Assembly (NCBI RefSeq): GCF_011065405.1
Contig: NZ_CP047056.1
Span: 1,200,747-1,264,746, forward strand
Direction of reading: 5' to 3'
Length of the DNA stretch: 64,000 bases
Source: Succinivibrio dextrinosolvens
Lineage (GTDB): Bacteria > Pseudomonadota > Gammaproteobacteria > Enterobacterales > Succinivibrionaceae
In this document: one piece after another, positions 56,132-60,845 of the stretch
Position numbering within the stretch: position 1 is the first letter of the stretch
Layout: the number at the start of each line of letters is the position of its first letter
The notes under the pieces: generated by a model
Seen by the model: only the letters and a program-made list of their open reading frames with translations
Told to the model about the DNA's origin: nothing
The model's database searches: none
Position numbers and translations under genes: made by a program

Positions 56132-56208
56132 TGGTAGCTATGACGGGAATCGAACCTGTGACCTCAGCATTATGAGTGCCGCGCTCTAACCAACTGAGCT
56201 ACATAGCC
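56132..56208 (-). tRNA. tRNA-Met (CAT), elongator, copy 1
   Basis: 77 nt with encoded CCA. Anticodon CAT in the loop CTCATAA; GCTCAGTTGGTTAGAGC D arm and GGTTCGATTCC T loop are normal. It closely matches E. coli metT/metU. The T stem has one A-C mismatch (ACAGG/CCCGT) that the other copy lacks. Confidence 0.97.
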
Positions 56209-56214
56209 ACTGAA

Positions 56215-56290
56215 TGGCTGGGGTACTAGGATTCGAACCTAGGTAATGGCGGAATCAGAATCCGCTGCCGTACCACTTGGCGATACCCCA
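56215..56290 (-). tRNA. tRNA-Gln (CTG), copy 1
   Basis: 76 nt with CCA. Anticodon CTG in GCGGATTCTGATTCCGC; the acceptor stem TGGGGTA/TACCCCA matches E. coli glnV/glnX. Confidence 0.96.
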
Positions 56291-56325
56291 ACAGAGACAA
56301 GAAATAAGACACCCTTTAAGGTGAA

Positions 56326-56402
56326 TGGTAGCTATGACTGGAATCGAACCAGTGACCTCAGCATTATGAGTGCCGCGCTCTAACCAACTGAGCTACATAG
56401 CC
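56326..56402 (-). tRNA. tRNA-Met (CAT), elongator, copy 2
   Basis: Same as copy 1 except in the T arm, where ACTGG/CCAGT pairs perfectly. Confidence 0.97.
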
Positions 56403-56408
56403 ATTGAG

Positions 56409-56484
56409 TGGCTGGGGTACTAGGATTCGAACCTAGGTAATGGCGGAATCAGAATCCGCTGCCGTACCACTTGGCGATACCCCA
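56409..56484 (-). tRNA. tRNA-Gln (CTG), copy 2
   Basis: Same sequence as copy 1 as far as I can compare by eye; 6 bases separate it from the Met gene, as in copy 1. Confidence 0.96.
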
Positions 56485-56508
56485 ACAGTGTGCTGAACAA
56501 CCCCATTA

Positions 56509-56584
56509 TGGCAGGGGTACCTGGACTCGAACCAGGGAAATGGCGGGATCAAAACCCGCTGCCTTACCACTTGGCTATACCCCT
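56509..56584 (-). tRNA. tRNA-Gln (TTG)
   Basis: 76 nt with CCA. Anticodon TTG in GCGGGTTTTGATCCCGC; acceptor AGGGGTA/TACCCCT. It is the first gene of the tRNA transcript, about 40 bases after the promoter. Confidence 0.96.
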
Positions 56585-56956: not shown

Positions 56957-58222
56957 TCAGTTATTATCCTTTTTGTATCTAGGATTCTTTTCTCCTGACA
57001 GCCATCTCTTTCCAAGATTCTGAATATTCATGGCTCCAACTCTGTCATCATTGGATTTATAGCCGCATGGGCAGCTATACAGATGTCTGTTATGATCTCT
57101 GCTCTGTTTGTGGATCCTTCCACATACGGGACATCTCTGAGATGTGTATTTTGCACTTACCCTAAGTACTTCAGAGCCCGTCTCTTGAGCTTTGTATTTT
57201 AGAAACTGCTCCAGCTGGTAGAAGCTCCAGCTTCTTAGGTCATATCTCTGAGAAAATCTCTTGACCTGCGCCAATTCTCTATATAGTTTTGCTGTTCTTG
57301 AAAGATTGCGCTCATCAAAACTTACACCGGTTAAATCCTCAAGAACAAAGAGTGTATCTTTGCCATACTTCCTCACGAGTGTCTTTGATATCTGATGGTT
57401 TACATCTGACATCCAGCGGTTTTCTCGTCCGGATATAGCTTTTAGTCTTCGTCTTGCTGATTTTGTTCCTTTAGCCTGAAGCTGTCGTCTCAGCTCAAGG
57501 AATTTGTTTCGCTTTGTTGCAATCTTCTTTCCGCTTATAAATTCGGTCTTTCCTTCTTCATCATAGCTTACAGACAGAAAGCGTAAGCCTCTGTCTATTC
57601 CCACTATATGTTTTACATTCTCTTTTTTGAAATCTTCTTTTTCTCTGGTTACAGGAATATGCAGGTACCATAGGCCGTTAAGTTCCACAAGCTTCGCTGT
57701 TCCAAATCTCCAGCTGCCATCAAAATATTCTTTGAAATGTTCTCTCTCATAAGTACATTTGATCCTTTCACCAAGGGTATTGATTGATAACAGACTTCCA
57801 TTTTCAACAAAACTGTAATCTCTGTTGCGAACCAAATCTGTCTGTGGTCTGCTGAAATACACCGGCTTAAAAAGCCATTCCAGTGTCTTTGGTATGCTCT
57901 GCCATTCGCCTTTCTCGTCTTTATAGCGGTATGGATGCTCTAAAAGCTGTTCTTTTACAGTATTATATCTTGCAATAACTGTTTTGATGGATGACTGTGC
58001 AAGCTGAGATTTAAGTCTAAACTTTCCTCTTATATTCCTGTACAGTACTTTATTGAGACTGAAGAAGTTCAAGTCAAAGGAATGGGTAAAAACGTATTCT
58101 GAAATAAAATTACATGCCTGTCGATACTGCTCCGTCATCTGACGTAACAGTGTTTCCTGTTCTGAAGGTACATTAATTCTTATTTTTAATGTTTTTGTAA
58201 ATATCAAAACAGTTTTCTCCAA
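56957..58222 (-). CDS. tnpB: TnpB, RNA-guided nuclease of a solitary IS1341/IS605-type element
   Basis: The 421-residue chain has the full RuvC set: Asp210 in VGIDRGLRFL, Glu295 in LFVLEDLTGVS and Asp393 in NDDRVGAMNI. A zinc finger lies between them (CPVCGRI at 364-367 and CPCGY at 384-386). The N-terminal helix-turn-helix/WED part is complete. TnpB proteins are RNA-guided DNA nucleases and ancestors of Cas12. No tnpA transposase gene is nearby, so the element could move only with TnpA in trans. It is intact, suggesting recent arrival or selection. Confidence 0.93.
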   Translation of the reverse strand: MEKTVLIFTKTLKIRINVPSEQETLLRQMTEQYRQACNFISEYVFTHSFDLNFFSLNKVLYRNIRGKFRLKSQLAQSSIKTVIARYNTVKEQLLEHPYRYKDEKGEWQSIPKTLEWLFKPVYFSRPQTDLVRNRDYSFVENGSLLSINTLGERIKCTYEREHFKEYFDGSWRFGTAKLVELNGLWYLHIPVTREKEDFKKENVKHIVGIDRGLRFLSVSYDEEGKTEFISGKKIATKRNKFLELRRQLQAKGTKSARRRLKAISGRENRWMSDVNHQISKTLVRKYGKDTLFVLEDLTGVSFDERNLSRTAKLYRELAQVKRFSQRYDLRSWSFYQLEQFLKYKAQETGSEVLRVSAKYTSQRCPVCGRIHKQSRDHNRHLYSCPCGYKSNDDRVGAMNIQNLGKRWLSGEKNPRYKKDNN

Positions 58223-59524: not shown

Positions 59525-59687
59525 CTAAGTATTATCTAAGTTAAAGTATCTAAAATACAAAATAGGAAAGCGGAAGAGACAAAATGATTTCAGACTTTCA
59601 AAGTTTTAAATGATTTTGTTTTTTAACAAAAAAGAATCACATACCTCATCGCCTAGGTCCACACCTTTTGACCTAGGCATTTTTTTA
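59525..59687 (+). ncRNA. Putative small RNA unit 1 (sibling of unit 2)
   Basis: The unit has the upstream direct repeat CTAAGT-N5-CTAAGT (59525-59541, 11-base period) and TCACATACCT (59637-59646). It ends in an intrinsic terminator GCCTAGGTC/GACCTAGGC with seven T (59651-59687). A 9-codon reading frame (59584-59613, ATG preceded by GGAAGAG) lies inside. Start point not known. Paralogy with unit 2 argues it is functional; no annotated sRNA family is recognised. Confidence 0.5.
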
Positions 59688-59723
59688 TTCAAAATCTCGA
59701 AATTATCCTGTAAATTCAGCAGA

Positions 59724-59925
59724 CTAAGTGTCATCTAAGAATTCAACTGTAACATATATCCTGCGTAGACGATATTAGACTTGAAATTTAAGACTAATGA
59801 TCCAGCAATTTATTGGAAGATTTTCCGAACTCATCGATTAAGTAACACTTGATGTTTTATTAACGTTTCAATTTTTTCACATACCTAAATCGCCTCTGAC
59901 AGTTTTTGTCAGAGGTATTTTTTTT
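59724..59925 (+). ncRNA. Putative small RNA unit 2 (sibling of unit 1)
   Basis: It repeats the order of unit 1: CTAAGT-N5-CTAAGA (59724-59740), a GATGTTTTATTAAC block like GATTTTGTTTTTTAAC in unit 1, TCACATACCT (59877-59886) and ATCGCCT. A terminator CCTCTGACA/TGTCAGAGG with a T8 run (59893-59925) ends it. A 14-codon frame (59797-59841) begins Met-Ile like that of unit 1. The middle is not conserved. The following gene has its own promoter. Confidence 0.5.
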
Positions 59926-60086: not shown

Positions 60087-60245
60087 ATGTTGCTAGATGA
60101 AGTAAAAGCTACTTTAGCAATGGAAAATTTATATCTGACAGAAGAGCAGGAAAAGCTACTGCAAAGCTATGCTGACGGAGAAATTTCTTTTAAAGAATTT
60201 CAGGAACAGATATCAAAATTAACCGAAGATAGCAAGGTAGCCTGA
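60087..60245 (+). CDS. VbhA-like antitoxin of a Fic toxin
   Basis: A 52-residue protein starting at ATG behind ACGGAGAG. It has TLAMEN near the N-terminus, the [S/T]xxxE[G/N] motif by which class I Fic antitoxins (VbhA) insert a glutamate into the Fic ATP site. LTEEQEKLLQSYADGEISFKEFQEQI is the rest of the VbhA-like helical fold. The stop is 3 bases before the fic TTG start, so expression is coupled with the antitoxin first. Confidence 0.85.
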   Translation: MLLDEVKATLAMENLYLTEEQEKLLQSYADGEISFKEFQEQISKLTEDSKVA

Positions 60246-60248
60246 ATC

Positions 60249-60845
60249 TTGGAAGCCACGACTTTCGATAAAGTCTATTGCTATCCAGGTACTGAAGTTT
60301 TAATAAATAACTTCAATGAGCATGATCCTAGGGTACTTTCTCAGTACGAGAGACTGTACACTGGAGCAAGGATTATCGATCTACTCAAAAAGCCTATTCA
60401 GGGCAAATTTGATCTACCCCACTTAAAGGCAATCCATAAGTATATCTTCCAGGATATTTATCCCTGGGCAGGAGAACTGCGCCAGGTTAATATATCCAAG
60501 GAAATTCTTTTCTGTGATGCTCAGTTTATCGAGAAAACAATTAACAAGGTCTTTGATGAACTTGCACAGGAGAATTTTCTCAGAGACTGTAGCGAAAAGA
60601 AAATCGCAGAAAAAGCAGCTTATTATCTAGGAGAGATTAACGCTGTACATCCATTCAGAGAAGGAAACGGAAGAGCTCAGAGAGAGTTTATCCGTGAGCT
60701 TCTGATTCCTCTAGGATTTAAGGTTGATTATTCTCTATGTGATCCTAAAATGATGCTCTATGCATCCATTAATGCATTTGCCGGTGATTATGAACTGATG
60801 ACCGAGCTTTTTGACAAGTGCATTATTGCAAAACCACAAAATTAA
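60249..60845 (+). CDS. Fic-domain AMP-transferase toxin
   Basis: The 198-residue Fic protein uses TTG 3 bases after the antitoxin stop; an AAGG lies 11 bases upstream. The Fic motif is HPFREGNGR (residues 134-142), fully canonical for AMPylation: His acts as base and Glu/Asn/Arg hold ATP. The flap KEILFCDAQFIE and YPWAGELRQVNI match VbhT-type Fic. The protein contains no other domain, so it would be a standalone toxin that modifies an intracellular target such as a topoisomerase (known for VbhT-like FicT), inhibited by the upstream antitoxin. Confidence 0.88.
   Translation: MEATTFDKVYCYPGTEVLINNFNEHDPRVLSQYERLYTGARIIDLLKKPIQGKFDLPHLKAIHKYIFQDIYPWAGELRQVNISKEILFCDAQFIEKTINKVFDELAQENFLRDCSEKKIAEKAAYYLGEINAVHPFREGNGRAQREFIRELLIPLGFKVDYSLCDPKMMLYASINAFAGDYELMTELFDKCIIAKPQN

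Follow-up and report, generated by a model that had tools for sequence, protein, structure and literature searches.

Predicted tandem sibling small RNAs of Succinivibrio with a common seed, a putative PmrA/QseB-like regulator and a candidate target at a ribosome-binding site

A locus of the rumen bacterium Succinivibrio dextrinosolvens, located within the 64,000-nucleotide stretch of DNA that was analysed (the window), is best explained as a tandem pair of base-pairing sRNAs that share a seed and a regulator and act on the mRNA of a gene for a 91-aa protein; for this explanation as a whole we estimate a probability of about three in four. In the mechanism that we infer, the two units would be tandem sibling genes for trans-acting, probably Hfq-dependent sRNAs. 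A PmrA/QseB-like response regulator would bind a CTAAGT-N5-CTAAG box that stands in for the -35 element, and transcription would start from a TANNNT hexamer 10 nt 3' of the box. Each RNA would stop at its own intrinsic terminator and present the unpaired seed UCACAUACCU just 5' of it. The seed would pair with ribosome-binding sites, the best target found being the 91-aa gene, whose promoter carries a Fur-box-like element; here, the target sequence CGAUGAGGUAUGUGAU just before the AUG would form 16 nt of pairing with sRNA 1 and 10 nt with sRNA 2. Whenever the regulator, probably of an envelope or metal type, is active, translation of the 91-aa gene would then be blocked. What sequence and comparison show directly is the make-up of the units, their conservation, the regulator box within its promoter motif, and the complementarity to the target.

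Each unit contains the CTAAGT-N5-CTAAG box, a TANNNT hexamer exactly 10 nt on, the block CACATACCT, and a hairpin with a T-run, all on the plus strand. In unit 1, the box CTAAGTATTATCTAAG has an 11-bp period (59525–59540) and is followed after 10 nt by the -10 hexamer TAAAAT (59551–59556); three of the four close relatives have TAGAAT here. The predicted sRNA 1 of about 125 nt (59563–59687, the 5' end placed from the -10 hexamer) carries the seed AUCACAUACCUCAUCG at 59636–59651, with CACATACCT at 59638–59646, and ends in a terminator (59651–59686) in which 59651–59659 pairs with 59670–59678 ahead of a T-run at 59680–59686. Unit 2 begins with the box CTAAGTGTCATCTAAG (59724–59739), and its -10 hexamer TAACAT (59750–59755), again at box plus 10 nt, is replaced by TATCAT or TATTAT in two relatives. 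Its predicted product, sRNA 2, would measure about 164 nt (59762–59925, with a predicted 5' end) and includes a highly conserved core (59798–59866; 66 of 69 columns invariant in five genomes), the seed UCACAUACCUAAAU (59877–59890, with CACATACCT at 59878–59886), and a terminator (59892–59925) formed by 59892–59900 with 59908–59916 and a T-run at 59918–59925.

A check of the sequence placed the boxes, the block and the terminators where a preliminary description of this DNA had located them, and counting from the box end reproduced its box-to-block spacing of 97 nt in unit 1 and 138 nt in unit 2 (113 and 154 nt from the box start). The GAT(K)TT...TTAAC block listed there is present in both units; its TTAAC part in unit 1 did not hold throughout, as it reads TTAGC in two of five genomes. 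CTAAG-N6-CTAAG occurs on either strand of the 64-kb window at just two sites, which are the two boxes, and CACATACCT has just two copies there, at 59638 and 59878. Across the whole source genome, a single contig of 3,468,545 bases, the pattern TCACATACCT-gap-TCGCCT matches these two sites only, against zero matches in the reversed control. By sequence, both are intergenic units with their own promoter and intrinsic terminator, as expected of Hfq-dependent sRNAs. Elsewhere in the window lie a cluster of five tRNA genes (56135–56584, minus strand; Rfam RF00005) and a 421-aa frame (56957–58222, minus strand) that resembles a TnpB/OrfB-type transposase by eye; another locus, L025, encodes a stretch very similar to this protein.

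A BLAST search of 40 genomes, the source included, recovered the whole locus, with 83 to 98% identity, in four of the other 39. These close relatives (G003, G004, G010 and G011) carry both units with the box, -10 hexamer, block and terminators conserved. Over the five loci, 13 of 16 columns are invariant in each box and 15 of 15 in the seed and linker of unit 1, while the spacer between the units is poorly kept (9 of 36). Beyond the five close genomes, the 441-nt query gave mostly short AT-rich matches that we took for chance, and the best non-Succinivibrio match (L008) overlaps a coding frame.

Homologous units, with the seed block and terminators retained in relatives, were found in 11 of the 19 Succinivibrio genomes. 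We tabulated 16 such units from these 11 genomes, with predicted RNAs of 71 to 168 nt. All 16 show the box, followed at 10 nt by TANNNT, and CACATACCT immediately 5' of the hairpin, although the table demanded CACATACC plus a loosened box and TANNNT and so cannot itself prove their invariance. The units of G002, G009 and G015 came through the box/promoter pattern alone; those of G001, G005 and G013, whose boxes deviate from CTAAGT-N5-CTAAG, were found around the Fic gene using ACATACC as the search term. Alignments covered 14 of the 16 units, the two units of G011 being excluded as near-identical to those of the source genome (G000). The block CACATACCT is identical in all 14, which is partly a matter of how the units were found, and outside it the RNA body gave no confident alignment across the 14 units. 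In one alignment (A7), G005 lies one column out of register, as judged by reading. In G015, a second exact box lies 5' of the seed-bearing unit (L116, 699–990), before a stretch that lacks CACATACCT and is perhaps a diverged or decayed sibling.

The relation between the two units was also recovered by a covariance model (R1) built from nine units with no unit 2 in training. This model recovers unit 2 in all five pair-carrying genomes, at E values from 1e-8 to 5e-7. Over 56 genomes of the family, each of the 11 carriers matches at E 2.7e-9 or better, and the best value in the 37 genomes of other genera is E 0.0046. Twelve matches with E from 0.0025 to 0.05 were excluded from the homologs; seven of these loci showed no convincing unit by motif inspection, and two (G003:C138 and G010:C88) correspond to the 91-aa target site read on its complementary strand. 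A simpler pattern of seed plus T-run, run across the genome collection, returned seven records, four of which are the close relatives. The matches outside Succinivibrio (L104, L105 and L107) were taken for chance, with no box within 150 nt 5' and, by eye, no clear terminator hairpin.

The terminators provided a test of pairing that involved 12 hairpins (11 distinct), 500 shuffles and five measures. Overall, 96.9% of the cells are paired, and both sides have changed in six of the nine pairs. None of the 500 shuffles reached as high on four of the five measures, and slid versions fell far below; the value of the remaining measure, further pair types, was reached by 53 of the 500. These compensatory changes bear out the earlier remark that the stems differ yet keep pairing. 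Together with the occurrence in 11 of 19 genomes and the identical seed of the 14 aligned units, they support the earlier proposal that the two units encode regulatory RNAs sharing a seed.

Translation of the units was considered as well, given that each holds a short frame starting Met-Ile (9 and 14 codons) and that the preliminary description had allowed for dual-function RNAs. Both frames are open in the window, and frame 2 is open in all five close genomes. Within this comparison, however, a deletion shifts frame 1 in two of the five and both substitutions in frame 2 alter the amino acid, so no conserved translated short frame emerges; moreover, the RNA of G005 is predicted at only 71 nt. 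Dual-function RNAs, or short mRNAs, are for these reasons very improbable, and the suggestion of dual function is unsupported.

Downstream in the window (60087–60845), a 52-aa frame with no Pfam match lies immediately 5' of a Fic-domain gene; the two may form an antitoxin/toxin-like pair, and 18 of the 19 genus genomes have the Fic gene. A unit lies upstream of this operon in 10 of the 11 carriers, which could indicate that the units serve the operon as leaders or attenuators. We give this idea hardly any credence, as the unit of G009 is about 9 kb from the Fic gene, about 700 nt separate the end of the G001 unit from the 52-aa gene, and in the genomes where this region was read a TATAAT stands just 5' of that gene. 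Across divergent units, moreover, the conserved element is the block before the terminator, and no alternative hairpin was noticed by eye.

The box alone says little, since it is rarer in the source genome than in the reversed control (10 sites versus 14). Adding the extra T and the -10 hexamer at fixed distance left seven exact sites in the source genome, and this full promoter pattern has 57 matches in 16 of the 19 genus genomes against zero in the reversed control. Allowing up to two mismatches in the source genome abolished the signal (41 matches versus 65 in the control). Two of the seven exact sites belong to the sRNAs and five precede other genes: a macA-like/macB-like pair (macB by eye), two small His-rich secreted-looking proteins (the second judged by eye), a ZapG-like gene with a DegQ-like protease gene behind it, and a BOF protein. 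Sites with one mismatch precede lpxC and another BOF-like protein, which scores 24.4 bits against a cut-off of 25.8. In the loci of relatives that were read, the zapG-degQ-like, BOF-like, macA-like and His-rich genes recur behind the pattern, as judged by eye.

A profile search disclosed one OmpR-family DNA-binding domain (PF00486) in the source genome, which seems few for a gammaproteobacterial genome of 3.47 Mb. The gene (L064, 5771–6448, minus strand) is followed downstream by a kinase gene and parE, and a degenerate box, CTAAATTTATCCTAAG, starts 61 nt before its own start codon. The profile ranking places PmrA first, then RppA and QseB, all under their cut-offs: the PmrA equivalog NF007928, best of 97 families, scores 225.4 bits (cut-off 330) and the QseB equivalog NF007663 191.3 bits (cut-off 345). 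The kinase is closest to QseC, also with a score under the cut-off, and the best solved relatives of the regulator are BasR (PmrA). Orthologs occur in 18 of the 19 genomes. Boxes with at most 2 of 14 mismatches lie 42 to 69 nt 5' of the start codon in 10 of these 18, and a limit of three mismatches is satisfied upstream of 12; among 2000 random AT-rich 200-nt stretches, 7 and 54 pass the respective limits.

Despite these matches, the RNAs could be real and driven by another activator, with the PmrA/QseB-like protein not binding the box. The box is poor or absent (at least four mismatches) before the ortholog in 6 of 18 genomes, including the sRNA carriers G002 and G013 (in G013 the contig covers only about 120 nt upstream), and eight genus genomes encode at least one further OmpR-family regulator. 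Against this stands the single OmpR-family protein returned by the search of the source genome, and the geometry of the box: direct repeats with an 11-bp period, set 10 nt away from the -10 hexamer, are characteristic of OmpR/PhoB-type regulators, as in the Pho box. Unit 1 can be read as TCTAAG-N5-TCTAAG, two head-to-tail six-base half-sites five bases apart, which is the layout of a PmrA-type site. A BOF gene lies behind the box, and YgiW is a BOF-family protein. In Salmonella, the QseB ortholog PreA activates ygiW plus its own operon (PMC2653508, in excerpt). The box also resembles the PmrA box of Klebsiella pneumoniae, since that of pbgP, TCTTAATATTATCCTAAGC, has the half-sites CTTAAT and CCTAAG with five bases between them (PMC3973317, in excerpt) and unit 1 reads TCTAAGTATTATCTAAGTT, a likeness judged by eye. 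Another activator is accordingly improbable in our estimation. The promoter motif, which spans the genus and has no match in the control, and the plausible OmpR-family regulator are in line with the common regulator postulated in the preliminary description.

Activation by the PmrA/QseB-like protein would place the sRNAs in a setting with known parallels. The regulons of PmrA and QseB (PreA, FirR) likewise feature an 11-bp direct-repeat box, autoregulation and a BOF/YgiW-type gene, and they differ in that the Succinivibrio regulator scores under the NCBIfam cut-offs for both proteins. An excerpt on Haemophilus influenzae (PMC12737762) describes control of ygiW-qseBC by QseBC/FirRS, for which ferrous iron, zinc and cold are signals. 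No sRNA under PmrA or QseB is named in the titles and abstract beginnings of the literature consulted; GlmY is placed there under QseF, a different regulator.

For targets, we scanned six genomes for AGGTATGT with an ATG no more than 8 nt behind it. The scan as such is not enriched (86 matches versus 81 in the control). Among its matches, AGGTATGTGATATG recurs in the source genome, G004, G010 and G003, and it is the ribosome-binding site of the 91-aa gene, which sits between M23 peptidase-like and ABC transporter-like genes in the source genome and G010. The initial BLAST had already given antisense matches to this site, 20 to 21 nt at 95%, in G004, G010 and G003. In all four genomes with the gene, CGATGAGGTATGTGAT is an exact 16-nt complement of the sRNA 1 seed, while the flanks have diverged. 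With the window's own sRNA sequences, the predicted duplex of sRNA 1 and target reaches -26.8 to -27.2 kcal/mol, equalled by 0 of 1000 shuffles in each of the four genomes. The values for sRNA 2 are -16.4 to -17.5 kcal/mol, with 2 to 20 of 1000 shuffles as good, so that sRNA 2 is predicted to pair with the target less convincingly than sRNA 1. This target site agrees with the earlier proposal of pairing between CACAUACCU and ribosome-binding sites that contain AGGU. In the predicted structure, the seed is unpaired with a probability of 0.93–0.94; complementarity of a conserved, unpaired seed to a target mRNA is a further trait expected of Hfq-dependent sRNAs, and Hfq itself is encoded in G010, the relative with both sRNAs in which it was searched.

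Of the 86 places, 17 were fetched and examined: four are the 91-aa gene, one (L264) precedes a 347-aa frame, seven lie inside coding frames (atpE-like three times, four others) and five have no frame of at least 60 aa at the site. The L264 site (minus strand, G000:C1:3122827-3122838) holds AGGTATGTGAT, an 11-nt complement of the sRNA 1 seed, and is situated before the 347-aa frame, 5' of its apparent own ribosome-binding site; the same DNA is found in the near-identical G011. This frame is a possible second target.

The 91-aa gene matched no Pfam or NCBIfam family and was found in 4 of the 19 genomes, with a fifth, weak match in G008 (E 0.006) that has an internal stop; in G011, both sRNAs are present and the target gene was not found. 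By eye, TAATGAGAATTAATATTATT upstream of the gene resembles the Fur box consensus; two of the four genomes carry a single changed base in it. The Fur-box-like element TAATGAGAATTA(A/G)TATTATT stands shortly 3' of a TATAAT (L248), with small changes across the four genomes. This element suggests an iron link for the 91-aa target.

Given its distribution, the 91-aa gene cannot account for conservation of the seed in the other carriers (G015, G002, G001, G013, G009 and G005), where the gene was not found. It could therefore be incidental, with the sRNAs and regulator as described and the true targets among other mRNAs, for example those with GAGGUAU at the ribosome-binding site. In the source genome, 8-nt complements, TGAGGTAT, precede lpxC and an MFS-like gene, but such 8-nt sites also resemble ordinary Shine-Dalgarno sequences. 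A perfect 16-nt complement over the ribosome-binding site of four orthologs with diverged flanks is unlikely to arise by chance, and although an incidental 91-aa gene deserves to be taken seriously, we think it unlikely.

The seed is carried by other RNAs too: CACATACCT followed by a T-run was found in 12 of the 19 genomes, with zero control matches. The 3' UTR of an aminotransferase gene has CACATACCTCGTTC before its terminator, kept in five genomes while the preceding UTR diverges (L275, G000:C1:2045165-2045217, minus strand; also L273, L274, L276 and L277), and is a possible 3'-derived sRNA with the same seed. A short unit in G004, G010 and G011 (L270, L271 and L272) consists of TATAAT, CAATTATCACACATACCT and the terminator hairpin GGATCTCC, with no regulator box seen within 130 nt 5' of the seed. 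A further short unit, located downstream of an HU gene in G004 and G011 (L152, about 1480–1570; L153, minus strand), has TTGATA...TATAAT and carries CACATACC(T/A)CATC plus a hairpin; the G011 version has CACATACCA, with one seed base changed, and the G004 version, like sRNA 1, is complementary to the 91-aa target over the 16 nt. In the aminotransferase 3' UTR and the TATAAT short unit, the seed is kept within surroundings that have diverged over much of their length; in the HU-side unit a longer upstream stretch including the promoter is kept as well. Terminators between hflC and purA in G010 and G003 were set aside, as CACATACCT lies partly within the stem and could hardly serve as a free seed. 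Some single matches of CACATACCT plus T-run are inside coding frames and look like chance.

Five seed-bearing RNA types are found in G004 and G011, with fewer in G010, G003 and the source genome, which has only the aminotransferase 3' UTR among the three additional RNAs. We tentatively propose, with slightly more doubt than confidence, that one seed, CACAUACC(U), on five RNAs with different inputs forms a shared-seed network in the S. dextrinosolvens group. Its members would be the two regulator-driven siblings, the HU-side RNA with its sigma-70-like promoter, the TATAAT short RNA and the aminotransferase 3' UTR. Through these, an envelope/metal two-component signal and other signals may act on a common set of mRNAs, among them that of a gene probably controlled by Fur.

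Comparison with known systems revealed close parallels in organization. OmrA/OmrB of Escherichia coli are also tandem sibling sRNAs under an OmpR-family response regulator, with the seed at the 5' end; by contrast, the Succinivibrio units have their seed on the 3' side before the terminator and a putative regulator that is PmrA/QseB-like. LhrC is a multi-copy sRNA with one seed, and Qrr, LhrC and other multi-copy sRNAs likewise present several RNAs with one seed, as do the five RNA types of G004; Qrr and LhrC differ from the Succinivibrio RNAs in sequence, promoters and hosts. In an excerpt of PMC4211561, the targets of OmrA/OmrB include iron-uptake genes and Qrr is a sibling set of four to five copies. 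Neither sRNA matched an Rfam family at gathering score, in agreement with the family having been called unknown. The OmrA-B model gave no gathering match and was not among the 15 matches up to E 10, Spot 42 (RF00021) scored 22.7 and 18.1 bits against a gathering score of 80, and Qrr (RF00378) scored 14.4 bits against 50. The Succinivibrio pair would work like OmrA/OmrB and, by the tests made, is not a member of that family; we regard it as a new sRNA family of a familiar type.

This sRNA family is apparently previously undescribed, and among titles and the beginnings of abstracts no small-RNA study of Succinivibrio was seen. An excerpt of PMC7507024 mentions seven ncRNAs and Rfam-based ncRNA prediction, and links the Succinivibrionaceae to milk yield and lower methane emission. 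If the proposal is true, the genus-wide box would define the first predicted regulon of this PmrA/QseB-like regulator, comprising a periplasmic protease, efflux, BOF-like and His-rich proteins. The sRNA family would put base-pairing regulation under the same regulator with an exact target site named, and because both the regulator and the site are named, the whole circuit would be testable at once.
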